The notes below the pieces were generated by a model. It ran no database searches. It was not told where the DNA came from and saw only the letters and a program-made list of their open reading frames with translations. Positions 9,237 to 46,277 of a stretch of 64,000 nucleotides of DNA are shown one piece after another; position 1 is the stretch's first letter, and every line of letters begins with the position of its first letter. This DNA comes from Pyrococcus sp. ST04. Its GTDB lineage: Archaea; Methanobacteriota_B; Thermococci; Thermococcales; Thermococcaceae. The position numbers were made by a program, and so were the translations under genes. The DNA is taken from NCBI RefSeq assembly GCF_000263735.1, contig NC_017946.1, positions 1,219,348-1,283,347 of the forward strand. The letters are read 5' to 3'.

Positions 9237-9270
9237 TTAAGTAGAAGATATAATACGGAGGTGAAAAAAC

Positions 9271-25885: not shown

Positions 25886-26155
25886 TTGGGATACACAGTG
25901 TACTATAAGACAAAAATTGATAAATGGAGAGAATTTATAAAACTTATAGAAAGAATAAGCGGGGGGTTAGGAATTGAGATTAAAATTCGCGAAAATGAAG
26001 TTATTCTAAAAGGAGAAGATGTTGAGGAGTTGAGAATAAAGAAAGAAGGGTATAGCTCTGTGAAAACATATGGAAGAGAACCTTACACTTCAATATACCT
26101 TTTGATCCTCTACTCCATATCCTCCTTTGGCTCCGTTGAAGTCTGGGAAGATTGA
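25886..26155 (+). CDS. Hypothetical protein (89 residues)
   Basis: Small soluble protein of unknown function with TTG start and GGGTGA ribosome site. Predicted alpha/beta: N-terminal strand (YTVYYKTKI), a helix (WREFIKLIERISGG), a beta hairpin (IEIKIRENEVILKG), and a C-terminal helix (TSIYLLILYSISSFGSVEVWED). The N-terminal YKTK-I-KWREF pattern resembles small Thermococcales proteins of unknown role. The 3' end overlaps the convergent DUF2101 gene by 46 bases, the longest such overlap in the window. Confidence 0.7.
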   Translation: MGYTVYYKTKIDKWREFIKLIERISGGLGIEIKIRENEVILKGEDVEELRIKKEGYSSVKTYGREPYTSIYLLILYSISSFGSVEVWED

Positions 26156-26832
26156 AGGACTTCGATAATAGCCTTTGGAACAGCTCCCCTGAAAATTCTA
26201 TCTTCTACCACTATTTTAACTAGATCCCCTTCATTAACGACATTCTCACCTTTCTCAATCCAATAATATCCCGGCTTAACATTTGCCGCAATATCATCGT
26301 GCACAAAAACCTTCACTAGATTATTTTTAACTTCTTCTACTATCCCATAAGTGTATTCTCTGCCAAATTTCATTTTGAAATAATTTCTAAATCCTAAAAC
26401 AAGAAGTGTTATTGCGATAATAAACACATAGAGGTAGAGAATGCCAACATTGAGATTTCTCAGAATCTCATATCCCACTAGAGCAATTGCCGAAATAAAA
26501 ACAAGCCCATGATAGAAATATCTGTAAGCTTCAATATTTATTATGTAGTCAGACCCTCTAACCAGAGTATACCTAATGAAAAGAAACTCAAAAATCGAGA
26601 TTGCAATTAGTAGTAGAATAGAAGTGTTGAGAATTATCAAGATAACACCTACAATTAGGTATAAGATAAAAGAAAGTTGCAATTGAAGACTGAAAGTTTC
26701 ATGCAGTGTATATTTTTTGAGTCTTAGTATAGGAGGCTTGTTAGTGGGCTTTGGAAATAAAAATGACTTTAAAATTCTGAAAATTTCCTCGGTCTTCTGC
26801 CCTATTTTATCTAAGAGTTCTATTATAGCCAT
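26110..26832 (-). CDS. DUF2101 family membrane protein
   Basis: 240-residue protein: a cytoplasmic N-terminal helix (LLDKIGQKTEEIFRILK), then four membrane segments at about 50-160, then a soluble beta-rich C-terminal domain (FGREYTYGIVEEV, VFVHDDIAANVKPGYYWIEK, DLVKIVVEDR) that looks like an OB/NfeD-type fold. It is the last gene of the minus-strand surface island, 25 bases after the DUF2341 protein, so it is probably co-expressed with the pilin-like genes. DUF2101 is an archaeal family without known function; my assignment is from memory of the pattern. Confidence 0.75.
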   Translation of the reverse strand: MAIIELLDKIGQKTEEIFRILKSFLFPKPTNKPPILRLKKYTLHETFSLQLQLSFILYLIVGVILIILNTSILLLIAISIFEFLFIRYTLVRGSDYIINIEAYRYFYHGLVFISAIALVGYEILRNLNVGILYLYVFIIAITLLVLGFRNYFKMKFGREYTYGIVEEVKNNLVKVFVHDDIAANVKPGYYWIEKGENVVNEGDLVKIVVEDRIFRGAVPKAIIEVLQSSQTSTEPKEDME

Positions 26833-26856: not shown

Positions 26857-29800
26857 TTATCTCTGTAATAAGTCTCTAGCCCCCGTTACTCCGAACATCG
26901 TAGATGCCGTATTTTCATCTATGAAGAAGTAAACACTATCCCTATCTGGGGAATCTGATATCCCGTAAACTCTATATGTTTGTAAATCACATATTGGATT
27001 ATCAACTAGGAGCTTTCCTGGGAAGTAGTGATCTAAGAAGCAGAAGTCAACACTACTGACATTTTCCTCTGGTGCCCTTTGAAGCACTGTTAAGAACAAG
27101 TTGTTAAGCTTCTCATCAAAGTAATAAGTTAGACTATCCGTGGGTACCATAAAGCTTACGAGTCCTATTGGATAATACATGCCATTCTTAGCTAAACCAA
27201 CTTCATTTTGAATTTGTTCAGACAATCTAACGTATTTTTCATGATTAACCGTGCTACCCTCGAGTCTCTCAAAGAAAGACATTCCCCAGGACACGCCAAA
27301 GTATCCTATCTCCCCCTCCCTGTTTCCAACCCTCTCTTGCTCATTGATACAGAGCAGGAAAGGTTCAAGATCATAAGCCCTCGCAAGGTTCTCAGGTGGC
27401 TTGGTTTCTTCTTGAGAGAGAAGAGGAGTATAGGTTATGTAAGAATCCCCCCATATTACCCACGAGAAGAATCCTCTGTTACCAACGGTATTATTAACCA
27501 CAAGGTAAACTGAAATATCACTAGTAACATCTCCGGAGAGTGTTACTTGGGAAGTCTCAGAAGAAACCCGTGGTTCATGAATGTAGGTTAAGTTTAAGCC
27601 ATTGGCGGCATTGAACTTGACCTCATACCTGTTTGGATTGGATATGAACCACGTCCCTGGGGAATAACTTGCCAGCTTATCCTTCCAGTCCTTGAGGATC
27701 AGAAGTTTCTCAGTAGTCCAGTTGTCGACGAACTGGAAGGTCACGGGAGTTCCAAGTATCGTGATTTTTTGAGATAAGTCGCCGATATTGATGTACTTCC
27801 TTATGAATATCCAATCAAAGATTGCCCCTCTCGATGAAGATCCACTATCTATAAATATATACAAATAGTATAAGGGGAACTTAAATACCCAATCTTTAAC
27901 AGTTTCTTGTCTGTTTTGAGCAGTTAAATCCTTAAATTCAAAAGTTCCAGATAAATAAGAATAGTAACTTAGCTCAACAGAATATACATGATAGCCATAG
28001 TCTCCCCTAGGACTTGAACTAGAGATCAAAACCCACCCCCAAGCATAATATTGAGCCAAGAAATTTTTTGAGATGTCATCAGTAAATAATAATGTTATGT
28101 TTAACTTAAATATCTTATATTGGAGCCCAATTCCTGCATTCCACTTCCCTTCGTATTCAAAACTTGGCCTCATTCTAAATTCAACAACAAATTGATTATT
28201 TATATTGAGAGGTTTTCTTGTTCTCAGGGCATACACTTTATCTCCACCAAAAATAGTTAGGGTGCCATTTCCACTAGGATTCAAAGAAACCACCCCATTA
28301 ATTATCCAATTTTGCTCTAGCTCGGTTCTGCTTTCATTAAAATCATCAAAGAACAGAAACACTGAATTCCCATCTCCCCTCGTGTATTGGAAGGAGTCAG
28401 AGTAAGCTATGTAAACGCTTCCAGGGAGGTCAGTTCTAACCCATATTAATGCTCCCCCATCGCCCCAATACTCTATCCAGAAGGGAACTTCTTTAGTAAG
28501 TGAGCCGTCAGCATACACCTTAATTTTCGCCTTGTTTGTCGTGGAATCATGGGGAATCAAGCTGGCAATTGTGGAGTTCAGGTATATTGGAACCTGAACA
28601 TCTGTAATGGTTTTAGGATAACTTAACTGCACTTCAATAATACTAATATCCGGGATCCCAGTGGCATTCAAACTTATCTCCACCCCTCCATTGAAATCAT
28701 TATTCCATGATGCCGAAAGATTGTACCTAACAAAGAATTCTCTTTGAGCTGTGGTAAAGAGTGGAAATACAGTCCCAGGGGATAAAGTAACATTCTGAGT
28801 ATAGTTCGCTCCAAACACAGACAGCAGACTTCCTCTCTTATATGGAACATCGGAAGATTTAGAATAATAGATATAATAAGTGGTTGTAGTCGGTCTCAGC
28901 CATATTAGAACCTTTTGATCATCCCAGCTCTCTATCCAGTAACTAGCCTCAACACAATCTGGGGTATAAAGTACCAAAGCCCCAGATGCTCCCGAATGAG
29001 GAATTGAGCTGAAAGGATAGTCCGTTGCATTGAATTCAAGAAGAACGAGCTTTCCAATATAGCTTGCAGGAACAGTAAAAGATACACGGTAGGGATAAGT
29101 ATAGTTACACCAAGTGACAGCACTACCAAATACAAGAACACCCATATCGCCTTCTTTAAACACATCGGCCGGATTTACGAGTTCTCCTCCTACCGTTGTG
29201 TTTACAATGATTGGAGCTGTTGTTTCAGAAAAGTCACCTTCCTTTAAGACATATGCCAACGCTCCATCACCCGGATACTTTTCTCCAATATATATTGTAT
29301 CCGACGTTACTGCCGTTGAATATCTGCCAATTACTGGAGAAGTACTACTAACTCCAGACCCCTCAATAACTTTAACAGGTTTTGCAAAGATCTCCGGGTA
29401 GGCATATTTACATGCCCTTACAATCCTTTGATATCTTCCCCCAGTAACCGCTGAGAACATGGGATCTTCAAGACCATTTAAGTCAACTATTGAATAAACG
29501 TAACCTTTCTCTGGAATACTCCCTTTGTAAACTATCTTACCCGCGAGATCTTTAATTACTATACTGTTAATTCTTCCCTTTATTACAATCCTGAACGAGT
29601 CTAAGGGAGCAATCAAAATTGTAGTGTTCCTAATAATGCTATCCCTATTGACCCCAAAAAGTAACCCCTGTTTTCTTAATTGTTTTTCAACTTCACCCAA
29701 CCAAGCCTCAATAGTTTGATTCCCCATAATTCTTTCTACATCGTAACCAGCTAACGGAGGAGAATTTCCTTTTAAAATAAGATCCCTTATTGTATTGTTC

Positions 29801-30063
29801 GCTCCATAAGTTGGAGAAATGAACTTACCAGTCACGGCAACATAGTCAATTGCAGCTATTAGAGCCCTCTTACCAGATATCTCCAGGGCTCTTTTAAATT
29901 CTAATTGAAGCGATGATATAACTTGATAAACTCTTTCAGAATAAGCCCTCTCACTTTGACTAAGAATTACCTGGGATGATATTTCCTCATATGTTGCTAA
30001 TAGTAATAAAATTGGAATCAACATCACGAGAATTGAAGCATTGATTATAAAACCCCTTCTCAT
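26857..30063 (-). CDS. Giant pilin-like surface protein with two DUF2341-like modules
   Basis: 1068-residue extracellular protein. The N-terminus MRRGFIINASILVMLIPILL is a short basic leader plus one hydrophobic helix with no later membrane segment, like the three preceding genes. Two DUF2341-like modules at about 320-420 and 480-580 share FWIEYWGD/YWIESWDD, ALIWVR/VLIWLR and YIAYS/YIYYS blocks; the second is followed by a jelly-roll-like region (FFDDFNES, NGTLTIFGGDKVYAL, FVVEFRMRPS). Many NxT/NxS sites suggest glycosylation. The ATG overlaps the upstream stop as TAATG, with GGAGGGAG before it; the longer frame from 30078 is less likely. Probably a filament tip or adhesive component; ligand unknown. 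Confidence 0.85.
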   Translation of the reverse strand: MRRGFIINASILVMLIPILLLLATYEEISSQVILSQSERAYSERVYQVISSLQLEFKRALEISGKRALIAAIDYVAVTGKFISPTYGANNTIRDLILKGNSPPLAGYDVERIMGNQTIEAWLGEVEKQLRKQGLLFGVNRDSIIRNTTILIAPLDSFRIVIKGRINSIVIKDLAGKIVYKGSIPEKGYVYSIVDLNGLEDPMFSAVTGGRYQRIVRACKYAYPEIFAKPVKVIEGSGVSSTSPVIGRYSTAVTSDTIYIGEKYPGDGALAYVLKEGDFSETTAPIIVNTTVGGELVNPADVFKEGDMGVLVFGSAVTWCNYTYPYRVSFTVPASYIGKLVLLEFNATDYPFSSIPHSGASGALVLYTPDCVEASYWIESWDDQKVLIWLRPTTTTYYIYYSKSSDVPYKRGSLLSVFGANYTQNVTLSPGTVFPLFTTAQREFFVRYNLSASWNNDFNGGVEISLNATGIPDISIIEVQLSYPKTITDVQVPIYLNSTIASLIPHDSTTNKAKIKVYADGSLTKEVPFWIEYWGDGGALIWVRTDLPGSVYIAYSDSFQYTRGDGNSVFLFFDDFNESRTELEQNWIINGVVSLNPSGNGTLTIFGGDKVYALRTRKPLNINNQFVVEFRMRPSFEYEGKWNAGIGLQYKIFKLNITLLFTDDISKNFLAQYYAWGWVLISSSSPRGDYGYHVYSVELSYYSYLSGTFEFKDLTAQNRQETVKDWVFKFPLYYLYIFIDSGSSSRGAIFDWIFIRKYINIGDLSQKITILGTPVTFQFVDNWTTEKLLILKDWKDKLASYSPGTWFISNPNRYEVKFNAANGLNLTYIHEPRVSSETSQVTLSGDVTSDISVYLVVNNTVGNRGFFSWVIWGDSYITYTPLLSQEETKPPENLARAYDLEPFLLCINEQERVGNREGEIGYFGVSWGMSFFERLEGSTVNHEKYVRLSEQIQNEVGLAKNGMYYPIGLVSFMVPTDSLTYYFDEKLNNLFLTVLQRAPEENVSSVDFCFLDHYFPGKLLVDNPICDLQTYRVYGISDSPDRDSVYFFIDENTASTMFGVTGARDLLQR

Positions 30064-32225
30064 TATCTCTCCCTCCAAATTCTTAGAGTTACCATTATTG
30101 GGGTGAATAATCCAGGAATACTACCCATACTCGCCGTTTGAATACTAACTCCCTTAGGCAAGTCTATGTCGATAGGATTAGATCTAGACCCATCATAAGG
30201 TACAGTTCTCCAGTCGTTAGGATTCAAATCGTCTAAATAATTGAGCTTGTTAAATAATCTCAGGACAGCATCATCAACTGCATACTTTGTTGGATCAAGT
30301 TCATCAACTGAGATCTGCTTATACGGCGGATCACCAACTATTATGCTCCTCCTTTCAACGCTACTTCCATCAAAGTAATAATAAGTTAAGTTGTATCCCT
30401 TATATGTTGGATATCCTTGGAGGAGATAGGGAAAGATATCACCATACCCGGCGTATCCCTGAATAAAATATCTTATTATCCCTCTTGTTTCACCATCTCT
30501 TACATATGATGACCCATCAGTCATTCTTATTTCAAAGGTATTCTGCTGCCCTGGAACCATCATCCAGTCGTATAATCTTGTGTAAGCGACCCTTATTGCA
30601 TACCTTCCCAATGGACCAGAATAGAACTCTCTGTTGTTCTCATACAAGTGTTGAACTGTAGAATAATCAGCAAATGAATATCCAACCCACCAATCGGCAT
30701 ACCATGGCTCAGCTGTAGGTGGTAGGGAATATCTAACCTGAAGTCCTGCTCCATTGTAGCTGACTCTTGGATCTCCATAGGGAAAATATATTGCCAATGG
30801 AATACTATACATTGTCAGTGCAGTTTTTGGTATGTAATCAATTTTGACATAGGAATCGGGGTACCCATATAGCACTCTCTGTCCTACCCCCCCATAAGTA
30901 GAGCTAGTTGCCGTACAATTAAAACCATAACATCTTGCCCCTCCATATTTCCACCGACCATTTGCTGGATTAAACTCCGCATCAAATCCTACAACAAAGT
31001 CAAAAACCATTTTGCTTATATTACTAAGAAATTCTGCATAGCAATCCCTACCGCCACATAATTTACTGTTTACAGCATTCCTGATTTCGCTGTCTGTGAA
31101 TTCCACAATTCCATCCACAGAAGGATGTTTCCATAAGAGTAGAGTTAACTTACCTCCAAGTCCGTAATATAAATTTACTCTATGAACACCATTCACTTTA
31201 AATTTCATTGTTATTCCCGTTATGTTGCCAGGAACAAACATCTCTAACAAGTAGAAGAACCCAGTATATTTCGAAGTTACGCTATAAATTTTCACGAGTC
31301 CTGGATCCTCAACTGCAAGAGAATTCGATTTGTATTTAATATATAGTGTTGTACCACTGGCAGAACCTATACCATCTTGCCTATATGGGTAGGTAGGAAG
31401 ATAGTATATTATAGTGACGTTATTTGAACCTGACTTTAGACAATTTGTCAAATCCTCGTTTATTGTTCTAGCAGTTGGACCAAATGTACATTCATAACGA
31501 GAGCCTACATTTATTTTTAGAAGTTGGTATTCCCTATATCTCTTTACAAATTTTCCATCTGCTTTAATTATTTCCGCATCTTCTGGGAGATTAATTTCTC
31601 TGGTAATAGTAAGAATATTGTAATCATCATATAAATTATATGGACCAGCGAGGACTCTAAACCATCCATACAATTCCTCTCTTATAACAGTAGCCTTAGT
31701 TAAGTAAGCCCTCGCTATGTATCCCCTAGGGGTTCTATTATATGAGTAACCACTCAGAATCATGCTTGAAGTTGAAATATCAAACCTTTCCTTAATCCCC
31801 TGAACTTTTACGAAAGATTGGTTATCAACTATGAACTCATATCCATAGCCAGGCAATAACCTTGACAAAACATATCCTATTATTGTCCTCGCTCTGGCCT
31901 TATAGTCAATCGAAGGATAAAGTGGCTGAACAGCCCAATACGTCGCAAGAATGTCTAGGGGGGACATGTCAGGAGTCACAAGGGTCATGTTCAATGTTCC
32001 ATTCCGAATCCACTCCTGGATTACATCTCCAGGAACCAGCTGATTAAGGGGAACAGTTCTTAGGATAGTAAGGACGTCTTCCGCACTCTTCATGCTTTGC
32101 TCCCTCATGTATGTCTGATACAGGGCTTGTGTGTTAATTTCCATAGTTACAACTCCCACAATAACAGTAGATACCAAGATGAACGCTAACAATGCGTCAA
32201 ATGTAAATATAAACCCCCTTCTCAT
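30063..32225 (-). CDS. Large pilin-like surface protein (720 residues)
   Basis: The N-terminus MRRGFIFTFDALLAFILVST matches archaeal type IV pilin leaders: basic residues, Gly at the cleavage position, an acidic residue (Asp) at +5 or so, and a hydrophobic helix. The ectodomain is Tyr- and Gly-rich, with several cysteines that could form disulfides (CTFGPTARTINEDLTNC, LCGGRDCYAEF, ARCYGFNCTA) and many potential N-glycosylation sites. No catalytic motif is recognised. It overlaps its neighbours by 4 bases upstream and 1 base downstream, so it belongs to one tightly coupled operon. Confidence 0.82.
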   Translation of the reverse strand: MRRGFIFTFDALLAFILVSTVIVGVVTMEINTQALYQTYMREQSMKSAEDVLTILRTVPLNQLVPGDVIQEWIRNGTLNMTLVTPDMSPLDILATYWAVQPLYPSIDYKARARTIIGYVLSRLLPGYGYEFIVDNQSFVKVQGIKERFDISTSSMILSGYSYNRTPRGYIARAYLTKATVIREELYGWFRVLAGPYNLYDDYNILTITREINLPEDAEIIKADGKFVKRYREYQLLKINVGSRYECTFGPTARTINEDLTNCLKSGSNNVTIIYYLPTYPYRQDGIGSASGTTLYIKYKSNSLAVEDPGLVKIYSVTSKYTGFFYLLEMFVPGNITGITMKFKVNGVHRVNLYYGLGGKLTLLLWKHPSVDGIVEFTDSEIRNAVNSKLCGGRDCYAEFLSNISKMVFDFVVGFDAEFNPANGRWKYGGARCYGFNCTATSSTYGGVGQRVLYGYPDSYVKIDYIPKTALTMYSIPLAIYFPYGDPRVSYNGAGLQVRYSLPPTAEPWYADWWVGYSFADYSTVQHLYENNREFYSGPLGRYAIRVAYTRLYDWMMVPGQQNTFEIRMTDGSSYVRDGETRGIIRYFIQGYAGYGDIFPYLLQGYPTYKGYNLTYYYFDGSSVERRSIIVGDPPYKQISVDELDPTKYAVDDAVLRLFNKLNYLDDLNPNDWRTVPYDGSRSNPIDIDLPKGVSIQTASMGSIPGLFTPIMVTLRIWRER

Positions 32226-33934
32226 CTCTCATCCCACACCCAAAGCTTTACCAAGCCCAGCTCATACCTTTTATCAAGTAATAGACCAATATTGTACTCA
32301 TCTATTAAATATACCGGACCATTGAAATTTGTTTCGTAAATCCACATCTCAACGGGTTTTCCTCTTTCACTTGAGACTTCTGAAAATACATCGATCCAGG
32401 GAATTATTATGGAAGTTTCGTTTCCTACATAAGTTTTTTGAAGGATAACTCTCCCAGTAGCATTTACTTTCCAAAGATACGCTTGGACATTTGGAGAAAC
32501 TGCACTCTTAGTTACTCCCAGTAATTTAGTCTTTTCCCCATCTAAGATTATAAATAGGGCGTATCCAGTTTCATTTGGAACAGTTATCTCAAACCTTGCA
32601 TAAGCAGGAGGAGTATATTTAAGAACACCTGAAATAAGCCTCGTATAGTTGGAGGAAACCTCAATAGTCATATTGTATTTTTTAATATCGACAGTTACAG
32701 CTCTGCTGGCATATTCAACCCAACTAGCATTCTTTGGAATTTGAATTAATACTGTTGTCAAATTATCTTTGTAATAAACAGCTCTGGCCCAAGCCTGAGA
32801 TCTCTCTAAGACTTGGGGGTACGTATAATCCAAGGAGGCAGAACTAACTGAAAGAGGCAGTTCTCCCAAAATGAAACATGGTGGGGGAGACGGAGGAGTC
32901 CAATCATCTGGAAGTGGATAACCATATATGTTTAGTGTAAAGCTCGAGGTATAGGAGATAACCTGAGGCTCATTTACTCTCTCCCATCCACTCCCTGTCC
33001 ATTCATACCATTCTCCAGTTCTGTTTGAAGCATACCAAATGTTTCCAACTTTGATGTAAAGGTTTCCTGGTAAATAGTTTTGAATACCAATATTTACTGT
33101 TGCAACACCTGAGACGTCAATAAGGTAAGGATTTATCGTGTCTCCGAATATTACCAAGTCCCTGGCGATATCTATTTGCCTACTGCCTTGTCCCCTAATT
33201 ATTAAAGCCCTATCTATGTAGACACTACCACCTACTCTTACAGTAACTGACCCATTAATTGTCCAGTCTCCATCTATTGCAAGGTAAGGATAGGGTCCTC
33301 CAAGTGTGGGGGGATAATGACCAACCGTTATATCTAATGAGCCATCTGTATTTACGTCTCCAAGGATACAAAGAGGAGAATCGGATGTTATACTAGCGGA
33401 TCCCCTTATTATTAGAGGAGAACACTGAATTATAGTTGGATTACCAAATTTTAAGGACTGGGTACCAGTTACTGTACAGCTTCCAGAATATACATCAAAA
33501 TTCCCGGAGATTCCGCCTGCATCTGGGTTCCATGTGAAGTTCACCGTGAAGTTCCATATACCAAGATAAAATTCAAGGCAGAAGGGCTTTCCAAGGCTCA
33601 AGTTTCTGAGGAAGTCAAGAACTTTGGAATCATCTTTTTTGATTAGATCAAAGAAAACTAGAGCCTTTTCGTAAGATACAAATGGAGAATCCTCCTCTTT
33701 CAGTCCAAAGCTCTTAGCATTGGTAATATTATCATTCCAATTTGGAGGCTCTCCAGGAGTTTTTAACAAGACATCTAACATGTTATCTGGAATGTTAACT
33801 CTCTCATACCACTCAACAATAGATGATATAGCCTCTCTTATTGAATCAGATGTGGTGGATATTGTTCCGAGGAGTATTATTGTCATGGTTAAAGCAACAA
33901 AGGCATCTAGTGAGAATATCTGGCCTTTTTTCAT
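32222..33934 (-). CDS. Pilin-like surface protein with beta-solenoid-like region (570 residues)
   Basis: The leader MKKGQIFSLDAFVALTMTII has the pilin pattern (KKG/Q, Asp near +5, hydrophobic helix). Residues about 130-280 are short repeating beta strands (IIRGSASI, CILGDVNTDGSLDI, LAIDGDWTINGSVTV, VGGSVYIDRALIIRG, IARDLVIFGD) like a polymer-forming or right-handed beta-helix cap; a Pro-rich linker (TPPSPPPC) and further beta domains follow. The ATG at 33934 overlaps the upstream stop by ATGA and has a GGAGTGTGA ribosome site; the longer start at 33949 is unlikely. Part of the island of six pilin-like genes. Confidence 0.82.
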   Translation of the reverse strand: MKKGQIFSLDAFVALTMTIILLGTISTTSDSIREAISSIVEWYERVNIPDNMLDVLLKTPGEPPNWNDNITNAKSFGLKEEDSPFVSYEKALVFFDLIKKDDSKVLDFLRNLSLGKPFCLEFYLGIWNFTVNFTWNPDAGGISGNFDVYSGSCTVTGTQSLKFGNPTIIQCSPLIIRGSASITSDSPLCILGDVNTDGSLDITVGHYPPTLGGPYPYLAIDGDWTINGSVTVRVGGSVYIDRALIIRGQGSRQIDIARDLVIFGDTINPYLIDVSGVATVNIGIQNYLPGNLYIKVGNIWYASNRTGEWYEWTGSGWERVNEPQVISYTSSFTLNIYGYPLPDDWTPPSPPPCFILGELPLSVSSASLDYTYPQVLERSQAWARAVYYKDNLTTVLIQIPKNASWVEYASRAVTVDIKKYNMTIEVSSNYTRLISGVLKYTPPAYARFEITVPNETGYALFIILDGEKTKLLGVTKSAVSPNVQAYLWKVNATGRVILQKTYVGNETSIIIPWIDVFSEVSSERGKPVEMWIYETNFNGPVYLIDEYNIGLLLDKRYELGLVKLWVWDER

Positions 33935-34431
33935 CTTATCACACTCCATCCATTATTAACCGTTATATTCATTACAATTCTTTTCTCTCCAATATATATA
34001 CCATCACCCCTTAAGCTCGTTATCCGGAGATTTTTCAGGGAATTTTTCAAGAATTCACCGAGTAGCGTCGCTATTCTAGAATTCTCTTCAGCAGTCAAGT
34101 TATTCAAATTATGGGAGAACCCCAGGTAGATAACTATTTCGCTTGAGTTTTCCTTAGTAACTTTCAGGCCAATAAAAGAAAATCTAACCCCATAGTACCC
34201 AGTATAACTTGTTATAATCTCATTCAATGGAGCGAGTTCGCTCTTGTTTACCACAACGCCATTGGTTATATAGGAAGAAGCATATCCAGCAAAATCTTTG
34301 AGTTCAACCAGAACTGAGATATCACCTGAGCTTTTTAAATAAACGATTGATACACTAATAGCGGATAAGACTATTATCCCCACTAATAACAGGCCTTCAA
34401 CTGAAGTTTGGGCTCTTTGAGACTTTGACAT
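33931..34431 (-). CDS. Type IV pilin-like protein (166 residues)
   Basis: N-terminus SKSQRAQTSVEGLLLVGIIV is a textbook archaeal class III signal: basic leader, cleavage near A/Q, Glu at +5 (QTSVEG), then a 20-residue hydrophobic helix for filament packing. The globular part (about 40-166) has NNLTAEEN, several N-glycosylation motifs and an amphipathic helix (EFLKNSLKNLRI). Its start lies inside the end of the preceding pilin gene (35-base overlap), with GAGGGAGG before the ATG. Likely cleaved by an EppA/PibD-like peptidase encoded elsewhere. Confidence 0.85.
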   Translation of the reverse strand: MSKSQRAQTSVEGLLLVGIIVLSAISVSIVYLKSSGDISVLVELKDFAGYASSYITNGVVVNKSELAPLNEIITSYTGYYGVRFSFIGLKVTKENSSEIVIYLGFSHNLNNLTAEENSRIATLLGEFLKNSLKNLRITSLRGDGIYIGEKRIVMNITVNNGWSVIR

Positions 34432-34852
34432 CTAGTCCTCCCTCACTAGCGTTATAGAATACAATTATCCAAAATTCAGGAGATTCATTCGTCAGTATCA
34501 CAGAACTAGTTGAAATGACATTGACGGGAAGTTTTTGTTGCGTATAGTACATTGCTCCACCAATGGTGGAATATATCTGAACTAAATCACTTGTTCCATT
34601 TATCGTTACCTTAATAGAGTCACTGGGAGATACAGAGAAGGGCAAATTAAGTCTAATTGAGTATCCTGGACCCATACTATAAGCCTTCGTAACGCTATCC
34701 CTGACTGTTATAGATAGAACCTTTATTTTTGTTGCCATTGAGAAAGTGTTTGCCATTTCATTTTCCTGTAATCCAATACTAATTATCCCAACAGAAAGCA
34801 CACTTATTAGTGCTATAGCAAAAAGAAAATCAATGCTTAACTGACTCCTCAC
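34397..34852 (-). CDS. Type IV pilin-like protein (151 residues)
   Basis: The N-terminus MRSQLSIDFLFAIALISVLS has the basic leader, Gln, Asp at +5 and hydrophobic helix of a pilin. I prefer the GTG at 34852, preceded by AGGTGGT, because it gives a leader matching its neighbours; a GTG at 34861 adds three residues. The C-terminal domain is small and beta-rich (SIRLNLPFSVSPSDSIKVTI, EFWIIVFYNASEGGLDVKV). It overlaps the next gene by 35 bases and follows the previous stop directly. Confidence 0.8.
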   Translation of the reverse strand: MRSQLSIDFLFAIALISVLSVGIISIGLQENEMANTFSMATKIKVLSITVRDSVTKAYSMGPGYSIRLNLPFSVSPSDSIKVTINGTSDLVQIYSTIGGAMYYTQQKLPVNVISTSSVILTNESPEFWIIVFYNASEGGLDVKVSKSPNFS

Positions 34853-34853
34853 T

Positions 34854-35471
34854 CTAACCACCTGGATTAATGTTTATCACAATTTCTTGAGACGTTGAAT
34901 TGTACTGCCAAATATTTTCAATCTCGGGATTCCATTCAACTACTATTTTCAACATTTTGGGGAGGTTCGCCGGTGATAATTTAACACAAGCAAGATTTAC
35001 AAAGGTTCCTCCAAAGTTCACATTCAAAATTTGGTCAGGAAATACCGTTGTGTTTGTAAGGAAGTCCCTCCTATATAGGGACATTGCAAAGAAAGCATTC
35101 TTATTAACACCTTCGAAGTTGACGCTTATAGGCTCAGTTCCATTTAAAAGCATTACATAAGTTCCGTTTCTGTAGGATATGCATATAATGGGATTATTTA
35201 TGAAAAAAGCTTTCTCTATGTAGTTAGGATCTCTAAGGTATGTTAACCTATAATACGTGGTAACCTTCGCCCCCGGACCTTGAGCATAGACCTGGCTTAT
35301 TGCATTCGATATAGAGCTTGCAAGGCCTTTCGCCTCAACACCAATTTGAGCAGCGAGAACATCTTGAGAAGGAGAACTAGAAAAACTCGTTAACTTCAAA
35401 GAGTACACTAACATAAGGACAAATATCATAAATAGGAACATGAACTCTAGGGAAATTTGACCCTTCCGCAT
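34854..35471 (-). CDS. Type IV pilin-like protein (205 residues)
   Basis: First of the consecutive pilin-like genes. MRKGQISLEFMFLFMIFVLM has KG/Q cleavage, Glu at +5 (QISLEF) and the hydrophobic helix. The mature domain contains two cysteines (IICISYR, NLACVKL) that could pair, and ends in a Gly-rich tail. GGGGGGAT lies before the ATG, and a TATA-like AT-rich stretch in the 89-base gap (35472-35560) could give the pilin block its own promoter separate from cetZ. Could be the major or a minor pilin; the sequence does not tell. Confidence 0.85.
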   Translation of the reverse strand: MRKGQISLEFMFLFMIFVLMLVYSLKLTSFSSSPSQDVLAAQIGVEAKGLASSISNAISQVYAQGPGAKVTTYYRLTYLRDPNYIEKAFFINNPIICISYRNGTYVMLLNGTEPISVNFEGVNKNAFFAMSLYRRDFLTNTTVFPDQILNVNFGGTFVNLACVKLSPANLPKMLKIVVEWNPEIENIWQYNSTSQEIVININPGG

Positions 35472-35560: not shown

Positions 35561-36154
35561 TTACTCAACCCTAGCCCTTCCTCTGTGGTCAAACAGAACT
35601 CCTTTGTAATCTGAATTGTATAAATTGAACTTATATTTTTCCTTATCTAGATCAAATCTTTCCAAAAGGGCTTTCAGCTCATACACAAAGAACTGAACAA
35701 GTTCATAATACTTCATATCCACTTCACTCTTCTGGCGGTCGAAGATGTAAATCGCTAGGGGAAGAACTCCAAGTGCAATGACGAATGTTGGGTATCCCGT
35801 AATGAAGGAGAGGATTATCATAAGAAGTGCAAAACCCGAAAGGGCTATTATTGAATAATATATTATCCTCATGCTTCTTTTTGCCTCCTTAACTTTTTCC
35901 TCCCAAATATCCATGAGAAATGGGTTGTAAAAATCGAAGACCGTGTGCCTTTTTCCTTTTCTTATCCTCTCCCTAATTAGAAGATCCCAATCATCCTTAT
36001 AATAAACTTCAATGCCTCTCAGCTTTGCTCTCTCGGCATCTATTGCAGAAATTATTCTTATGATATCTTCAGCACTCTCGTGGGCAATGTGGGAGTAAAC
36101 CTTCTTTTCATCCAGTTCAAGAGCGACTTCAACAGAATCTTTAACCTTAATCAT
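35561..36154 (-). CDS. Membrane protein coupled to the CetZ-like gene
   Basis: 197-residue protein with a soluble N-terminal part (about 1-90, helical, acidic and basic) and two adjacent membrane helices near 95-140 (IIYYSIIALSGFALLMIILSF, FVIALGVLPLAIYIF) followed by a helical cytoplasmic tail (YYELVQFFVYELKALLERFD). The ATG at 36154 overlaps the CetZ stop by eight bases and has GGTGAGG upstream; the longer frame from 36196 is not supported. The coupling suggests it may tether or position the tubulin-like protein at the membrane. No family recognised. Confidence 0.78.
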   Translation of the reverse strand: MIKVKDSVEVALELDEKKVYSHIAHESAEDIIRIISAIDAERAKLRGIEVYYKDDWDLLIRERIRKGKRHTVFDFYNPFLMDIWEEKVKEAKRSMRIIYYSIIALSGFALLMIILSFITGYPTFVIALGVLPLAIYIFDRQKSEVDMKYYELVQFFVYELKALLERFDLDKEKYKFNLYNSDYKGVLFDHRGRARVE

Positions 36155-37241
36155 CAACCTCACCAGGGTATATATCGTCAAAGTCTGGAAGACCACTTAG
36201 TAATTCTTTTTTCTTTATCTCACTTTCCTCTTTAGCTTTCATAAAATCTCTGGCATATTTCTTTGCGGTCAAGATTATCTCTTCTATACTCTTACTTTCG
36301 TATATCCCACTTAACAGTGTAACAACCTCAACTTCCCTCTCCCTAGGATCTGGGTAGAATCCCCTAAATATCTGCTTTCCCTTTATCCTTTCCGTGAGCT
36401 CATTTAATGCCTCAAATATGTCTTTAGCCTTTAAGGCTTCAGGAGGCCCATGGATAGCTACAAGACCGTAAAGTGCCGACTCTATGTTAACATCAAGGTA
36501 GAGTCCCTCTGTCTCGAACGATCTTATTATCAGCCTTGACAGGCTTTTGATCTTTGAAGCATCTGCTTTTGCATATCCAATTGTAGCAAAACTGCCCATT
36601 GCCCTAAGAACAAACTTCAAATCACTTGCATCCAACGTTTGTTCTCCAGGAACGTCGATCAAAGCCAACAAAGAGGCTATTCTTTCAACAATTGCATAGT
36701 TTATCTTTTCATAGGCCTGGCTTATATCTTCACCACTCTCCTTGAGCTTATTGTTGTCTATTGCTATTATTGAGTCAACTATCTTTGAGAGCTTGTCTAT
36801 AGTTATTGCGGCATTTATAGTTGGCCTTATTCCCTCCTCCTTTAGTGGCAGTGCTCCTACTGCAACAACAAGGGAATCAGGGTACTCCTCTTTGAGTGCT
36901 TCTGCCAAGACTGGAGTGCCGCCGGCTCCAGTCCCACCTCCAAACCCGAAAGTCAAGAAAAATATATCAACGTCCTCGTACCCAACTAGGGAGTTTATTT
37001 TTTTCATTACCATCGGAAGATCTCTTTTCATTGCCTCTCTCCCGAGAACGGGATTTGCATTTACCCCTTTACCCCCAACTATGCTCTCGCCTATCAGGAT
37101 CCTCCTTTCTGGAGGGATATGCTTCAGATATTCAAGATCTCCTCTTGAAGTGTTTATGGCCAATGCCTCAAAATCAACTAAAGAAAATATGTCTGCTATC
37201 TTTGTCCCGCACTGGCCTATTCCTATTATTATTGCCCTCAC
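36147..37241 (-). CDS. cetZ: CetZ-like tubulin/FtsZ superfamily GTPase
   Basis: 364-residue cytoskeletal GTPase. The glycine-rich tubulin signature FGFGGGTGAGGTP is at about 98-110; GIGQCG at 6-11 is the T1 loop and AINTSRGDL the T2/T3 region. It lacks the C-terminal FtsZ tail that binds FtsA/SepF partners and ends in an acidic segment, as CetZ-type (FtsZ3) proteins do; archaeal CetZ controls cell shape and motility rather than division. The GTG at 37241 is used because GGGGGTGA lies about eight bases before it and the protein then begins MRAIIIGIGQ; the open frame extends to 37271. It sits in an operon with surface and pilin-like genes, which suggests a role in placing surface structures. 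Confidence 0.88.
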   Translation of the reverse strand: MRAIIIGIGQCGTKIADIFSLVDFEALAINTSRGDLEYLKHIPPERRILIGESIVGGKGVNANPVLGREAMKRDLPMVMKKINSLVGYEDVDIFFLTFGFGGGTGAGGTPVLAEALKEEYPDSLVVAVGALPLKEEGIRPTINAAITIDKLSKIVDSIIAIDNNKLKESGEDISQAYEKINYAIVERIASLLALIDVPGEQTLDASDLKFVLRAMGSFATIGYAKADASKIKSLSRLIIRSFETEGLYLDVNIESALYGLVAIHGPPEALKAKDIFEALNELTERIKGKQIFRGFYPDPREREVEVVTLLSGIYESKSIEEIILTAKKYARDFMKAKEESEIKKKELLSGLPDFDDIYPGEVDD

Positions 37242-37267
37242 TCCAGGTTCACCCCCGTAAAAATAAA

Positions 37268-39331
37268 TCAAATGAAGATCACAGATATCTCATTTTCCTG
37301 AACCTCGTCATCTCTGTTTTCATCAACCCAAGATGCCACGATAGCTTTTCCATGCAGGTACTTGAGTATTGGTGTGTTGAAGAGGAGGTTTGCTATGTCT
37401 TCAGTATTTCTACCTTTGTATAGAACGAAAAGCAACTCTCCATCCCTGTTTCTGCCAGGAACTATAAGGAGAACCCCATCGCCATATAATGGAATACCAT
37501 TTACAGCAAGTACTCCCTTCATAATTCCAATTTTGACATCAGCGTTGTATTTAGACACATCGACCCTTCCCAAGGGATAGATTAAGATATAATTGCCATA
37601 CTCTGGGATCTTAATCAGAACTGTAGTCCTTATGCTAGTATTGGTGTGGAATATTTCCTTTAACCCATCTGAAACGACACCAGCTATGCTTGGACTCGTT
37701 GTTAGTATCTTAACTTTCTTTCCTTTTATGCTTGTTAGTACCGTGTATATATTCACTTTTGGAACTTCAGGGAAGAGTGTGTAGTACATAATAAAGGTTG
37801 CGTCAAGCAGTGGGCTCTCGTAAAAGTCTTCCACCTTTGGAATTTCCCATGTTGGCTTAAAGCCGAGTTTTGACAATAAGACGTAAAGATAAAGTTTCTC
37901 CCACTCTTGCGAGGGTGGGTTATTTAGGATATATTCTATTGTATCGTGGAGATCATCCAGACGAGCCACGTTTAAGAGAGAACTAAAGATTATGGTAGTC
38001 TCTGGGTACTCTGGGGCAAAATACCAGTAAGTTATTGGGGTTCTAAAGACGTAACCCCATCCCCCATCATTTTTCATAGATAATAACCACTCAACGTTTT
38101 CATGTATAATTGGATCATACTTAGATACACCCAATCTCCATAATGCTTCAACTGCAAGAGCCACTATTAATGGTTGTCTCCCAAAACTATCTCCCCAATA
38201 TGTACTAAGAATTAATTCTTTAGCATGTTGTTTTTCTTCTAGTGAGAGAGCATTATACTCTAAAAGGGATAGAAGAGCAAATAGATATTCTTCTCTCATA
38301 TATCTATCCCTGAGAATAAGTTGTTCTTCTCTAAAGAGAACCTTTCTCATAAATTCGAGTCCTCTCTGAGCGGCATCGCTACTGGGGTTGCATATCTTTA
38401 CAGCCTTTAAAACGAAGTATGTTGTTGAAACACTTGAAGGAGATCCTCTATATATTCCCCATCCACCATCTTCATTTTGAAGACTCTGGAGAATACTACA
38501 GGCCTTGCCTAAGACATCTTCTTGAGGGCTCACTAAGTTCTCTGAAACTAAAGAAAATGCCATCGTTGCATATAAGGGGTAGTATTTATCAGGCCAATCC
38601 TCTTTCTCCTCCTCGACCTTTGTTAATAACTTTGCCGCTTCAAAATTTAAACCTTTAAGAGAAAGAATAGCATATGCCCCTAGGGCGGTGTTTAGGGTTG
38701 CTAATTTTTCAAGGGCATCCGAGGGTGTTTCACCTGTGACTTTTCTAGTTACAATTATCCAGAGATAGAGATGATAAGGATCGGAAGGCATTTTATCCCT
38801 TATTATTGAATATGCTTTCTCAACTAGATCAAGCTTAGTTTCTAAGAATACCAGAGCTGCAGAAGCTAATAGGGTACTTCTATAATCGGGCTTCATACCT
38901 TTTAAATATCCCCATCCGTCTCCAGTAAAAGACTCCGTAAGAAAACTAATTCCTCTATTTATAGCCTCTACTATTTTCCTCTCCTTATTTTTATCAAAAG
39001 AAAATGCTTTTTTAGCTTCTGCAAGAGCTATTAGTGCATATCCGGTATCTGGAACTGAACTCACACTCCCATAAAAGTATCCCCACCCACCATCTGGATT
39101 TTGCCAAGATAGTAGCTCCTCGACTCTCTTCCAGGCTTCATCTACAGACAAATTCTCGCTCTTATTAAGGGCTAGGCTAAGTGCAAATACTATCAAGCTA
39201 AGATTTTCTGTTTTATTATCATCGGGAAAGTCCTTCGAAATATCCACGGAATAGTCAAGTATTTCTAATGCTGACATCGGAAGCAATAAAATATTAATGA
39301 ATATCAGGGCTACTGCAATCTTCATCCTCAT
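37268..39331 (-). CDS. Secreted protein with prenyltransferase/squalene-cyclase (alpha-alpha toroid) repeats
   Basis: 687 residues with a signal peptide (MRMKIAVALIFINILLLPMS). QW-type repeats are plain: QNPDGGWGYFYG at about 77-88, GDGWGYLKG, QNEDGGWGIYRGSPSSVSTT and KNDGGWGYVFRTP, each followed by a helix pair (GYALIALAEA, YFVLKAVKIC). The catalytic DxDD of true cyclases is not evident, and extracellular location argues against an enzyme on squalene; related toroids in complement-like proteins and gliding proteins bind partners. A beta-rich C-terminal domain (about 560-687) follows. It is co-directional with cetZ (its stop lies 26 bases upstream of the cetZ GTG). Confidence 0.82.
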   Translation of the reverse strand: MRMKIAVALIFINILLLPMSALEILDYSVDISKDFPDDNKTENLSLIVFALSLALNKSENLSVDEAWKRVEELLSWQNPDGGWGYFYGSVSSVPDTGYALIALAEAKKAFSFDKNKERKIVEAINRGISFLTESFTGDGWGYLKGMKPDYRSTLLASAALVFLETKLDLVEKAYSIIRDKMPSDPYHLYLWIIVTRKVTGETPSDALEKLATLNTALGAYAILSLKGLNFEAAKLLTKVEEEKEDWPDKYYPLYATMAFSLVSENLVSPQEDVLGKACSILQSLQNEDGGWGIYRGSPSSVSTTYFVLKAVKICNPSSDAAQRGLEFMRKVLFREEQLILRDRYMREEYLFALLSLLEYNALSLEEKQHAKELILSTYWGDSFGRQPLIVALAVEALWRLGVSKYDPIIHENVEWLLSMKNDGGWGYVFRTPITYWYFAPEYPETTIIFSSLLNVARLDDLHDTIEYILNNPPSQEWEKLYLYVLLSKLGFKPTWEIPKVEDFYESPLLDATFIMYYTLFPEVPKVNIYTVLTSIKGKKVKILTTSPSIAGVVSDGLKEIFHTNTSIRTTVLIKIPEYGNYILIYPLGRVDVSKYNADVKIGIMKGVLAVNGIPLYGDGVLLIVPGRNRDGELLFVLYKGRNTEDIANLLFNTPILKYLHGKAIVASWVDENRDDEVQENEISVIFI

Positions 39332-39392: not shown

Positions 39393-41483
39393 CTACTCCG
39401 TTAATACTTTAATTTCAGAAATCTCCTCTTCCTCTTTCTTTGGAAGACCTCCTGGTCTTGGCTGTTTTCTCCTAGCTTTGAGTTTTTCTAGTTCATTTTT
39501 ATATTTGACCATGCTATATCCAGTCCATCCGGATACTATTACAAGAGCTATTACTATGAACGTCAAGACATCTACCAAACTGACTCCTTTTGGACTTTCT
39601 TTGTTACTTTCTTTCAAGTATTCCTTAGTTATGTTTGCTATTTCCTCTGCTAAATACGTTGCATTCTCCTGGGAAGCCAAAACTTCCTTTATGAACTCTG
39701 GTAATTCCTCCGGGGATGGATATTTCTCGATAACTTTAGTATTTTCTTTAACTATTATCCTCGGTGGAACACTGTTTATCAGGACAGTATTAGGATACTC
39801 TATCGTGTGCCATCCTCCTAAGGGATCTTGGAACTTTAGAACGACTTTTAGGGGGTAGACTCCCTGTTTAAGAACAAGATATTGGGAGTCCACAACCTTC
39901 TCTTCACCAGCCTTTAGTGTCCCTATCTCAATTACATCTTTTCCATCTAAGAAATCTCCAAGAGATACAAGGAGCGAAGCATTCTTTATGAACTCGTATT
40001 CATTGTTATTTCCGTAAGCCTTTATTGTAAACCTCAATTTTACTGTCGAGTTTTCTTTTGCAATCACGTAGTTGCTCCAGGAGGAATTTGAAAATCCTTC
40101 AACATTTAGGCTTATTCTGGGAACTGCATAGACATTTATTTTCTCTATAACATTTGATTTCACCGTTATCTTTCTTCCAGCTTCGTCATAGTACTCAACG
40201 ATAACGGGACCCAACGTATATGTCCCAACTGCCTTTGGCTTTAAGGTGTACACTAAAACTGGCATCTCGGAAAATGCCTCTAAGGTATTTAATGTCCATG
40301 CTCCGATTCCACTCCTGAGCTCGAAGTTATTTGGAACGGGGGCAACTACTCTAACTTGAAATGCATTTCCTCTTCCTTCATTCTTTACTTTAATGAAAAC
40401 TATAAGCTCGTCACCACCAAGCAAGAGATCCTTTGTGCTAACCTTGAGTTCGGCTGTGACTTTTGCAGATCTTATTATTGGCTTTGCTATGGCCCCCAAA
40501 GGAGCGTACACCTTTACATAAGTCCTGTTGTAAGTCATGTCAACGGAATTTGGAGGAATTTCAATCCTGAGAGGTGCTTTCGTGCAAAGATAAATGTTTC
40601 CTTCTCTAACGGAGAATTCTTCTAAGGTTTTTCCTTTGCTGTCTAGTACGGCAAACCTAGAGTAATATCCAACGCTTTTTAGCAAAATATTGTATTTTGT
40701 ATTATTGTACTCTATAGTTAAGTTCTCCCCCACGTAAAGTATATCGCTATACACAAGCTGAGTTGCTTCAGTAGGTGTTAACTGCTCTTCTTCCTCGGTT
40801 TCTTCTGGGGGCTTAATTACTTGAGGATTTGAAAATACAAATTTTGGAACGTATATATCAACTACTGCCTCATCATCTTTTTTTGCACTAACGAGGGTTA
40901 TCACTAAGAAAGGAGACTGAACAAAGTCGGAATTCAATCTATATGGTACTTTTATTGGGGAGTCTTTTTCTAGGAGTTTATCGACAGTCTCTCCATCCGG
41001 ATATGTTATCCTAAACTTTGCTTGAGTATCGGAGGGAACGTCAAGAAGTTTTATGGAGAACTTTGGAAAGAGTTTTGGAAGAGTGTAGGAGTCACCTTCA
41101 TTTAAGACCATGTTATCTTCGAGTAGTTTCATAGGAGTTGAGAGCTTCACATAAACTACGCCTTTATCCTTCCATATCCCGCTAATTTTAATTGCCAGAA
41201 GGATATTATCTTGAGATGGATAGTATCCAGTTTCGTCTTCTGCTAATATGAACGTTTTCATTGGATTATTATTCTCATATACCCTTATCTTTACCTTTGT
41301 CCAGTCAACGTCAACGTCTTCAAATTTCACAAGGTATTTCTCTGAGAACTTTATCCCCCAACCTAATTTTAACCCAATCGTTGTCAGACTTGAATACATT
41401 GTTTCTTCTCCCTTCACTTTTGGTATAAACAACATTGAAGAGCCAATTAGGATAAGTAGAATTAGTACACCCGCTTTTCTCAT
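39393..41483 (-). CDS. Membrane-anchored CARDB-type surface protein
   Basis: 696 residues: signal peptide (MRKAGVLILLILIGSSMLFI), several beta-sandwich domains including CARDB/BatD-like ones (VFIKVKNEGRGNAFQVRVVA, YTLKPKAVGTYTLGPVIVEY), a membrane helix near 640-660 (VLTFIVIALVIVSGWTGYSM) and a charged cytoplasmic tail of about 35 residues (KKEEEEISEIKV). BatD-like domains are typical of surface or oxygen-tolerance operons, but no MoxR or VWA partner is here. Likely first gene of the surface island, 61 bases before the toroid protein, with its own AT-rich promoter at 41484-41552. Confidence 0.8.
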   Translation of the reverse strand: MRKAGVLILLILIGSSMLFIPKVKGEETMYSSLTTIGLKLGWGIKFSEKYLVKFEDVDVDWTKVKIRVYENNNPMKTFILAEDETGYYPSQDNILLAIKISGIWKDKGVVYVKLSTPMKLLEDNMVLNEGDSYTLPKLFPKFSIKLLDVPSDTQAKFRITYPDGETVDKLLEKDSPIKVPYRLNSDFVQSPFLVITLVSAKKDDEAVVDIYVPKFVFSNPQVIKPPEETEEEEQLTPTEATQLVYSDILYVGENLTIEYNNTKYNILLKSVGYYSRFAVLDSKGKTLEEFSVREGNIYLCTKAPLRIEIPPNSVDMTYNRTYVKVYAPLGAIAKPIIRSAKVTAELKVSTKDLLLGGDELIVFIKVKNEGRGNAFQVRVVAPVPNNFELRSGIGAWTLNTLEAFSEMPVLVYTLKPKAVGTYTLGPVIVEYYDEAGRKITVKSNVIEKINVYAVPRISLNVEGFSNSSWSNYVIAKENSTVKLRFTIKAYGNNNEYEFIKNASLLVSLGDFLDGKDVIEIGTLKAGEEKVVDSQYLVLKQGVYPLKVVLKFQDPLGGWHTIEYPNTVLINSVPPRIIVKENTKVIEKYPSPEELPEFIKEVLASQENATYLAEEIANITKEYLKESNKESPKGVSLVDVLTFIVIALVIVSGWTGYSMVKYKNELEKLKARRKQPRPGGLPKKEEEEISEIKVLTE

Positions 41484-44346: not shown

Positions 44347-44715
44347 ATGTACAGGAAAGGTGCAAATAGCGAAAGGGAATTAATTAAGATGCTCGAAAAA
44401 CATGGATTTGCAGTAGTTAGATCAGCAGGAAGTAAGAAGGTAGATCTTGTAGCAGGGAATGGGAAAAAATTCCTCTGTATAGAGGTTAAGTCTACAAAAA
44501 AGGATAAGATATACATAAAGAAAGAGGACATAGAAAGACTCGTTTCGTTTTCTAGAAAATTTGGAGGAATTCCAGTATTAGCGGTAAAATTCATCGGAAA
44601 TGGGTGGAAGTTTATGAATGTGGAGAAAATTGAGACGATTAGGTTTAGCATTAATGATGGAGATCCTCTAGAAGTATTTTTGGGAATTCAAAGAAAGTTG
44701 GGGGATGAAAGATGA
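44347..44715 (+). CDS. hjc: Holliday junction resolvase Hjc
   Basis: 122-residue archaeal resolvase that cuts four-way junctions as a dimer. Catalytic residues are Glu9, Asp33, Glu46 and Lys48 (the [18 protein letters not shown] and IEVKST segments). The ATG at 44347 is preferred over the long frame from 44266: the protein then starts MYRKGA as in the family, and a TATA-like stretch (AAAAGTATATGG) lies about 25 bases upstream, so the mRNA is leaderless. Its stop overlaps the next gene by ATGA, an odd coupling to a surface protein. Confidence 0.95.
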
Positions 44716-46277
44716 AAAAACATCATGTTGTGGCTCTAATGTTCTGGATTGGGATTATGATTTGCTCAACAATACCTTCCATCTCTGCGCAGCCTGTGCT
44801 AATTGTAAAAGTGTCTCCAGATAAAATAGAAGCTCTCCCCAATCAAACCGTTACCATTAATGTCACGATAACTAACCTTGGAAACGCTTCTGCAAGTAAT
44901 GTAACGGTTTTTGCACTTGACGATATAAAGGGCGTAATATTCACTCAAGGCTTTATAAAAGAAATACCCCCTAACGGCACCGTAACACTTCCCATTACTA
45001 TATACATCCTAAAAGCTGAAGCCGGAGTATATACGGTTAGAATTGGAGCAAGAGTCGGTAACCAGCTTAGTATTGGAGAGTTCTCTATTAAAGTTAAGTC
45101 AGTGATAAATTATACCGTGGATATCTTGGGAGATAAGAAATTTCTTTATGGCAAAAATGTAACTTTGACAGCAAAAATCCTCTCAACTTCGAATGTACTG
45201 TTATATGGAAATGTTGAGATAGTAGTTAGGAAGGGAGAAGAAACTATTAGAAAGTTTTCCGATAAGGTTATGATACAACCCTGGGGAGAATGGAAGAAGA
45301 AAATAGCGTTAGGAAATCTTCCTCTAGGCGAGTACAGAGTAGAGATTAAAACCGATTTTTATGGAAGAAAAGAAGCCAAGGTTTTTATGTTTGAAGTCTA
45401 TAGAAGGCCCCTCACCTATACAGCTTATTTTGAAAACGGAGAGATATTAGTTAAGGTTTACAGAAAAGACACGAAGGAACCCGTAAGTGGAATAAAGGTT
45501 GTTATTGGAAATTCGACTTTCTTTACCGACTACAATGGACTTGTTGAATATAGTGTAAAAGCCCCTGGTCTATATATGATTCGAGTATATCTTGACGGTG
45601 TAATAAGTGAGAGTATAGTTAGGGTTGAGAAGCCGATAATAGTTGCATACACAGAAAACAATAGTTTAATTGTTAAAGTCGTTGACTCTTTAGGTTATCC
45701 GATAGGAAATATCACGGTGAAGGTTTCCAGTATAAGGGGAGTGTTCTACAATGTAACAAACTCTGAGGGAATCTGTGCATTTAATGTATCAAGAATCGGA
45801 AGTGGAAAGATACAGATATCTGTGGAAAGTTTGAAATATCTGCCTTCGTCAATCGAAATAAATGTGCTACCACAAAAAAAGACGATGACAATACCAAAAA
45901 CTACAGAGTTAACGAAAACAGAAACTAAGAAGATAGTGCATACAATAACAGTAACTCAAGAAATCAAGGGTAAGACCATAATAGACAGATGGATAGTAAT
46001 TATTCTCGGCCTGTTCTTTGTCACATTAGGAGGAAGTTCATATCTCGCGTTCTTTAGACCAATAATCACAGAGGATAGAATAGAGAAGTATTACTTCATT
46101 AAAGTCAAAGCTCCCAGACTAATCCCCCTGAAAAATTTCAGCTACGAAATTCTTGCAAGTGCAAAAGAGGCTTGGACAAATAAGGGAAAAGTCAGAATCG
46201 AAGATAGCAGAATAATCTGGGAGATTGAGGAATTAGAGCCAGGAGAAGAAGCCATATTACAAATAGTTCTTGCATAG
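44712..46277 (+). CDS. Membrane-anchored CARDB-type surface protein
   Basis: 521 residues: signal peptide (about 1-27), a CARDB-like domain ([23 protein letters not shown]), further Ig-like beta domains (about 130-390), a Thr-rich stalk ([17 protein letters not shown]), a membrane helix near 428-450 and a cytoplasmic domain of about 75 residues that is itself beta-rich ([32 protein letters not shown]). The last residues look like a coiled or conserved intracellular module. Translation is coupled to hjc by ATGA overlap. Similar in architecture to the proteins at 415 and 39393; role unknown. Confidence 0.8.

Follow-up and report, generated by a model that had tools for sequence, protein, structure and literature searches.

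Six conserved pilin-type genes beside cetZ in Pyrococcus sp. ST04 encode candidate minor pilins for the tip of a clade 1 type IV pilus

Clade 1 type IV pili have been described for Thermococci, Methanococci and Methanobacteria (Makarova 2016, PMC4858521). Their loci, like the one presented here, encode several class III minor pilins and large DUF2341 proteins, with an FtsZ-family GTPase and a squalene cyclase as neighbors, and the systems likewise comprise EppA, an ATPase with two TadC proteins, and small stand-alone major pilins of ~70 amino acids (aa). Every Thermococcales cetZ gene studied adjoins a pilin cluster and a scaffold role has been suggested for CetZ, a link confirmed in 2023 in work that analyzed CetZ rather than the pilins treated here (PMC9856176). 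We analyzed one such locus in a 64,000-nucleotide stretch (the window) of Pyrococcus sp. ST04, the genome of which is a single contig of 1.74 Mb. The locus itself is already known, and its arrangement of six consecutive pilin-type genes, pointed out in a preliminary description of this DNA, is of the type reported in 2016. The main text of that paper holds neither the code of acid positions, the six-member match between Thermococcaceae and Methanobacteria, nor the core/insert layout set out below. A strict +5/+6/none leader code combined with conserved cores and variable inserts was, as far as we found, not described in the literature covered. We propose, at a probability of roughly 0.6, that the six proteins are minor pilins of the thermococcal clade 1 type IV pilus that form a pilus-initiating tip complex led by the largest member, a giant of 1068 aa.

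Inspection of the locus reveals six adjacent, tightly coupled genes on the minus strand, with stops at 34854, 34397, 33931, 32222, 30063 and 26857 as first described, although the interval originally assigned to them (30063-35471) leaves out the gene for the giant at 26857-30063. Start sites were set from orthologs, Shine-Dalgarno-like sequence and overlap with the gene lying upstream. The 570-aa gene begins with the ATG at 33934 (ATGA overlap with the upstream stop) and the giant with the ATG at 30063 (TGATG-type overlap), while the GTG of the 151-aa gene was chosen from its Shine-Dalgarno-like sequence and from relatives. These starts bear out the range of 151 to 1068 residues claimed earlier, and each protein indeed opens with a basic pilin-type leader (Table 1). 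The acidic residue expected near +5 can be placed more sharply: the three small proteins have it at +5 and the 570- and 720-aa proteins one residue later, at +6, and the giant lacks it. A generic class III leader rule matched 13 of 132 open reading frames (ORFs) in ~135 kb of the same genome. Besides these six genes it picked out four archaellins, two small pilins that stand alone and one sequence that is probably an ordinary signal peptide; within the window the six were the only matches. Given this specificity, the cluster of leaders is not a product of chance. All six proteins carry a class III signal by the leader rule, with the Pfam model PF04021 above its cut-off for one of them and weak for another.

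The leader code is strictly kept across Thermococcaceae. Gln+1 and Glu+5 are present in 45/45 relatives of the 205-aa protein and Gln+1 and Asp+5 in 44/44 of the 151-aa protein, and the 166-aa family retains Glu+5 in all 46. Asp+6 and Ala+7 occur throughout the 570-aa family (46/46), and Asp+6 in 49 of 50 members of the 720-aa family, where the one deviating case (L086) lies at the cut-off end of a contig. Each of the 50 giants has Asn+4 and no acid at +5 or +6. This invariance holds although whole-protein identity can drop to 24-30%. Full alignments likewise show invariant columns for the giant's Asn+4 and for the Asp of both the 570- and the 720-aa families, so the code is not produced by the search pattern. 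Size is a different matter. The sequence of lengths (205, 151, 166, 570, 720 and 1068 aa) amounts to three small proteins followed by three large ones and not to the gradual rise first reported, and a size gradient was rejected as a functional feature because it is not conserved in relatives, in which the last protein can be of ~365-400 aa beside a 720-aa homologue exceeding 800 aa. Contigs titled Thermoproteota (L079) and Altiarchaeales (L087) also bear Thermococcaceae-type pilin clusters and are probably mis-binned metagenome contigs.

A matching set exists in methanogens. In a sample of 21 methanogen loci beside EppA-like genes, each main leader class was present in 13-18 loci; the full set of six classes is clearest in L128 and L141, and Methanothermobacter-like loci hold most classes. 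The classes are QVS(L/F)EY, VLS(I/T)D, QISAEF (6 loci), FIFT(T/I)D, MTFTTD (2 loci) or FAFSLD, and an acid-less class with Y(A/V/T)(F/L) and LLLIP or LLFIP in the helix. Profile comparison with hhalign paired, with the probabilities given in brackets, the 205-aa family with the QxSxEY pilin (97.9%), the 151-aa family with VLS(I/T)D (96.8%), the 166-aa family with QISAEF (89.8%), the 570-aa family with MTFTTD (95.7%), the 720-aa family with FIFT(T/I)D over 231 columns (97.5%) and the giant with the acid-less LIP pilin (95.0%). When each trimmed protein was shortened by its first 45 residues, the best partner stayed the same in all six rows, with weak ectodomain-only scores for the 151-aa (12%) and 166-aa (6%) proteins. 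The Asp+6 family FAFSLD (~300 aa) is ambiguous as a partner because its matches to the 570- and 720-aa families are of nearly the same strength. In light of this one-to-one pairing, comparison of sequences indicates that the six-member set is probably ancient. DUF2341 was found in only one of the 66 Methanobacteriota genomes searched and is therefore not the conserved feature.

What is conserved becomes apparent from the three large proteins. Conservation profiles of the 570-, 720- and 1068-aa proteins show high identity at both ends and a middle of low identity with many gaps. In the giant, DUF2341 (PF10102, E=1.7e-11, residues 526-591 of the ORF) and a lectin-like fold (region of about residues 520-790) are inserted between conserved ends, the first of which has the helix motif LIPxLLLLAT. 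A short form of the giant, 362-418 residues long, occurs in at least 11 species; its reading frames align with nothing but the first ~230 positions of the profile and some of the last ~150, lack the middle and are missing DUF2341. With ends conserved and the middle variable or missing, these alignments assign the conserved job to the core and mark the outer domain as a replaceable module.

Structure predictions add to this picture. The model of the giant has a predicted local distance difference test score (pLDDT) of 80.6 and a predicted template modeling (TM) score of 0.48, with a helix at residues 2-78, more helices and then beta domains. Its Foldseek matches are mostly ConA-like/L-type lectins, calreticulin and GH16 (probability 1.00, target TM mostly 0.45-0.62), from which a ConA-like lectin fold grafted on the pilin core is predicted at the level of the fold. 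The model of the 720-aa protein (pLDDT 83) shows a long N-terminal helix followed by beta-rich domains and gave weak full-length matches in the PDB with low whole-length TM. None of the three large families gave a match when solved structures were searched by sequence. The earlier idea of outsized pilin-like ectodomains on a type IV pilus stands, given the leaders, their conservation, the methanogen loci and the machinery described below; presentation of giant adhesins is plausible in view of DUF2341 and the predicted lectin-like fold, and an enzyme on the pilus, the other option raised, was rejected, as domain searches found no enzyme family and the 720-aa model has only weak global matches to known folds.

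The six genes sit within a longer conserved run (Table 1). In 32/32 Thermococcaceae loci the order of cetZ, the gene for the 211-aa membrane protein and the six pilin-type genes is unchanged, with both flanking genes (squalene-cyclase-like and DUF2101) also present in 30 of the 32. CetZ is 81-93% identical in relatives and the 211-aa protein 49-69%; the latter had no family match in domain searches. Searches recovered the giant from nearly all Thermococcaceae covered and the 720-aa protein from 33 genomes of this family, with no hit to the latter in the sister families included. In scans of contigs the 720-aa alignment retrieved matches and the 570-aa protein gave none. Adjoining the squalene-cyclase-like gene, a gene at 39393-41483 encodes a secreted protein of 696 aa that has a membrane helix at its C-terminus and was matched only in Pyrococcus-type loci, other genera having a different gene of ~330 aa at this place. 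Two more large secreted proteins with C-terminal anchors, at 415-2622 (adjoining an ABC transporter) and 44712-46277, are possible surface proteins.

Table 1. Conserved gene run in the window, in order of transcription (all positions are those of the window; the slash precedes position +1).
Feature	Position	Strand	Remarks
Secreted squalene-cyclase/prenyltransferase-like alpha-toroid repeat protein	37268..39331	minus	PF13243/PF00432; in 31/32 neighbor loci; opens conserved run
CetZ (tubulin/FtsZ-superfamily GTPase)	36147..37271	minus	PF00091 E=4.1e-30; CetZ_C E=9.5e-18
Predicted membrane protein, 211 aa, start uncertain	35561..36196	minus	Between cetZ and first pilin gene in 32/32 loci
205-aa minor pilin (putative)	34854..35471	minus	Leader MRKG/QISLEF, acid +5; PF04021 class III signal E=8.6e-8
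151-aa minor pilin (putative)	34397..34852	minus	Leader MRS/QLSIDF, Asp +5; GTG start at 34852
166-aa minor pilin (putative)	33931..34431	minus	Leader RA/QTSVEG, acid +5; weak PF04021
570-aa modular minor pilin (putative)	32222..33934	minus	Leader KKG/QIFSLDA, Asp +6; ends conserved, middle variable
720-aa modular minor pilin (putative)	30063..32225	minus	Leader RRG/FIFTFDA, Asp +6; predicted helix 9-57, beta-rich domains after
1068-aa giant pilin-like protein	26857..30063	minus	Leader RRG/FIINAS, Asn+4, no acid; candidate first (tip) subunit
DUF2101 membrane protein	26110..26832	minus	PF09874 E=4.1e-67; in 31/32 neighbor loci; closes conserved run

The remaining parts of a pilus are encoded elsewhere in the genome. 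An EppA-type prepilin peptidase of 398 aa (PF06819, E=4e-35) lies near 644198. Stand-alone small pilins of 67, 65 and 54 aa carry class III signals, and two small pilin genes stand in tandem; the 54-aa pilin (MRRAQTAIEYLF..., L044 ~9254-9418), directly upstream of the EppA-type peptidase (L044 9434-10630), is a candidate major pilin. A motor locus, putatively of clade 1, encodes a PilB/TadA ATPase of 946 aa (~1114.8-1117.6 kb; L041 7801-10641), with an intein (PF14890) at residues 502-781, side by side with two T2SSF/TadC proteins. Genes for a DUF515 protein and for a secreted protein of 320 aa lie upstream of the ATPase (L041 10643-13081). No match to PF01478 (Peptidase_A24) was obtained in this genome despite its archaellins, so that the EppA-type peptidase was the only one found, and a second, archaellin-type peptidase was not located.

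Taken together, a model can be proposed in which the EppA-type peptidase would remove the short leaders of the six minor pilins and their N-terminal helices would then enter a pilus assembled by the PilB/TadA ATPase and the two TadC proteins, with a shaft made of the stand-alone 54-67-aa pilins. The giant would be the first subunit, starting the filament and capping its tip; it is placed first because, being acid-less, it would have no subunit above it whose amine needs neutralizing. The Asp+6 modular pilins of 720 and 570 aa would sit beside it, and the three acid-+5 pilins would connect this tip complex with the shaft. Assembly would fall to the conserved N- and C-terminal cores, while the variable middles, the lectin-like one included, point outward and may bind surfaces, glycans or other cells. 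CetZ may take part in building the pilus.

The choice of the giant follows from comparison with bacteria, for which it has been proposed that the first subunit can be recognized by a missing Glu5, large size and a position at the 3' end (PMC5207764). In the window the giant fits all three and would therefore start and cap the filament: in addition to lacking the acid, it is encoded by the last gene in 32/32 Thermococcaceae neighbor loci and is the largest of the set in the window, although in short-form species it is smaller than the 720-aa homologue. Several observations weigh against this model. The acid-less protein is not encoded by the last gene of the set in methanogen loci, and a Pfam GspK (T2SSK) match was found neither in the giant nor in its short forms nor in one methanogen homolog. 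EppA substrates in M. maripaludis share Gln at +1 (PMC3875500), in contrast to the Phe/Tyr at +1 of the 720- and 1068-aa proteins, which makes the processing of these two uncertain. Furthermore, the published clade 1 model draws minor pilins near the base (PMC4858521), and our literature search found no leader-cleavage or filament data for Thermococcales. A bolder proposal, possible but short of probable, is that acid position (+5, +6 or none) is an ancient code ordering six tip minor pilins in Thermococci and Methanobacteria, onto which lineage-specific, fast-changing adhesion domains were grafted nearest the tip, such that the acid-less subunit would be initiator, cap and adhesin at once.

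The complex may instead serve chiefly as a DNA-uptake tip for natural transformation, a doubtful but serious alternative to surface adhesion. Transformation of M. maripaludis needs type IV-like pili, and within the homologous operon a screen struck several epd genes and, repeatedly, the DUF2341 gene; the list of competent archaea moreover includes P. furiosus and T. kodakarensis (PMC10133366). The ConA-like lectin fold predicted for the giant suggests glycans as ligands, however, and variable middles suggest changing targets. DNA uptake and adhesion are not mutually exclusive.

Placement of the six proteins at the base or along the shaft, where they would decorate or regulate the pilus and not cap it, appears unlikely. 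Base placement has been drawn by analogy with minor archaellins (Makarova 2016, PMC4858521), and Asp+6 could also pair in-register inside the shaft. In contrast, ectodomains of 570-1068 aa and an acid-less largest member match the signatures of tip subunits, and strict conservation of one copy each suits a defined complex. More improbable still is a role of the large three as ordinary surface proteins anchored in the membrane, with pilin-like leaders that are left uncut or are cut without polymerization following, in a bindosome-like coat. Phe+1 leaders may indeed escape EppA, yet a small basic leader with G/A at -1 and invariant +4/+6 residues exceeds what an anchor needs, the large three always share an operon with three canonical pilins, and the same classes recur in methanogens. 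An origin of the six in the archaellum is scarcely credible even though Pyrococcus has one and archaella can also adhere to surfaces (PMC5517150), as the archaellum locus lies apart at 601.9-611.5 kb with its own FlaI-type ATPase, FlaJ-type protein and archaellins bearing acid-less A-(I/V)-G-I-G leaders, and the six-gene set recurs beside EppA in methanogens.

The tip complex proposed here resembles three described systems in part. With GspHIJK of the type II secretion system it shares genes that stand together and a largest member that lacks the +5 acid and is encoded last in the cluster (here in Thermococcaceae), but GspHIJK has four members rather than six, two of the six proteins have their acid at +6, and there is no GspK-family sequence match. 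PilA/PilB/PilC of S. sanguinis are modular pilins with ConA-like lectin and vWA modules in a modeled tip complex (PMC9934059). Grafted-module pilins with an acid-less partner are common to both systems; in S. sanguinis, however, a Glu5 pilin bears the lectin module and its acid-less partner is small, whereas the giant combines the missing acid with the predicted lectin-like fold. The giant further recalls the PilY1/PilC tip adhesins in its very large size, in DUF2341 (reported in PilY) and as a proposed tip adhesin. Unlike them it has its own pilin leader and helix, and the C-terminal beta-propeller domain of PilY1 gave no Pfam match in the giant at E<=0.1. With the leader code and its counterparts in methanogens, what had been a few minor pilins of poor conservation becomes a defined set of six parts whose order can be tested, and T. 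kodakarensis offers a genetically tractable route to the role of CetZ, a tubulin relative, in pilus building. If the model is correct, the set would be an archaeal counterpart to the GspHIJK and PilABC tip complexes with a named candidate for the first subunit.

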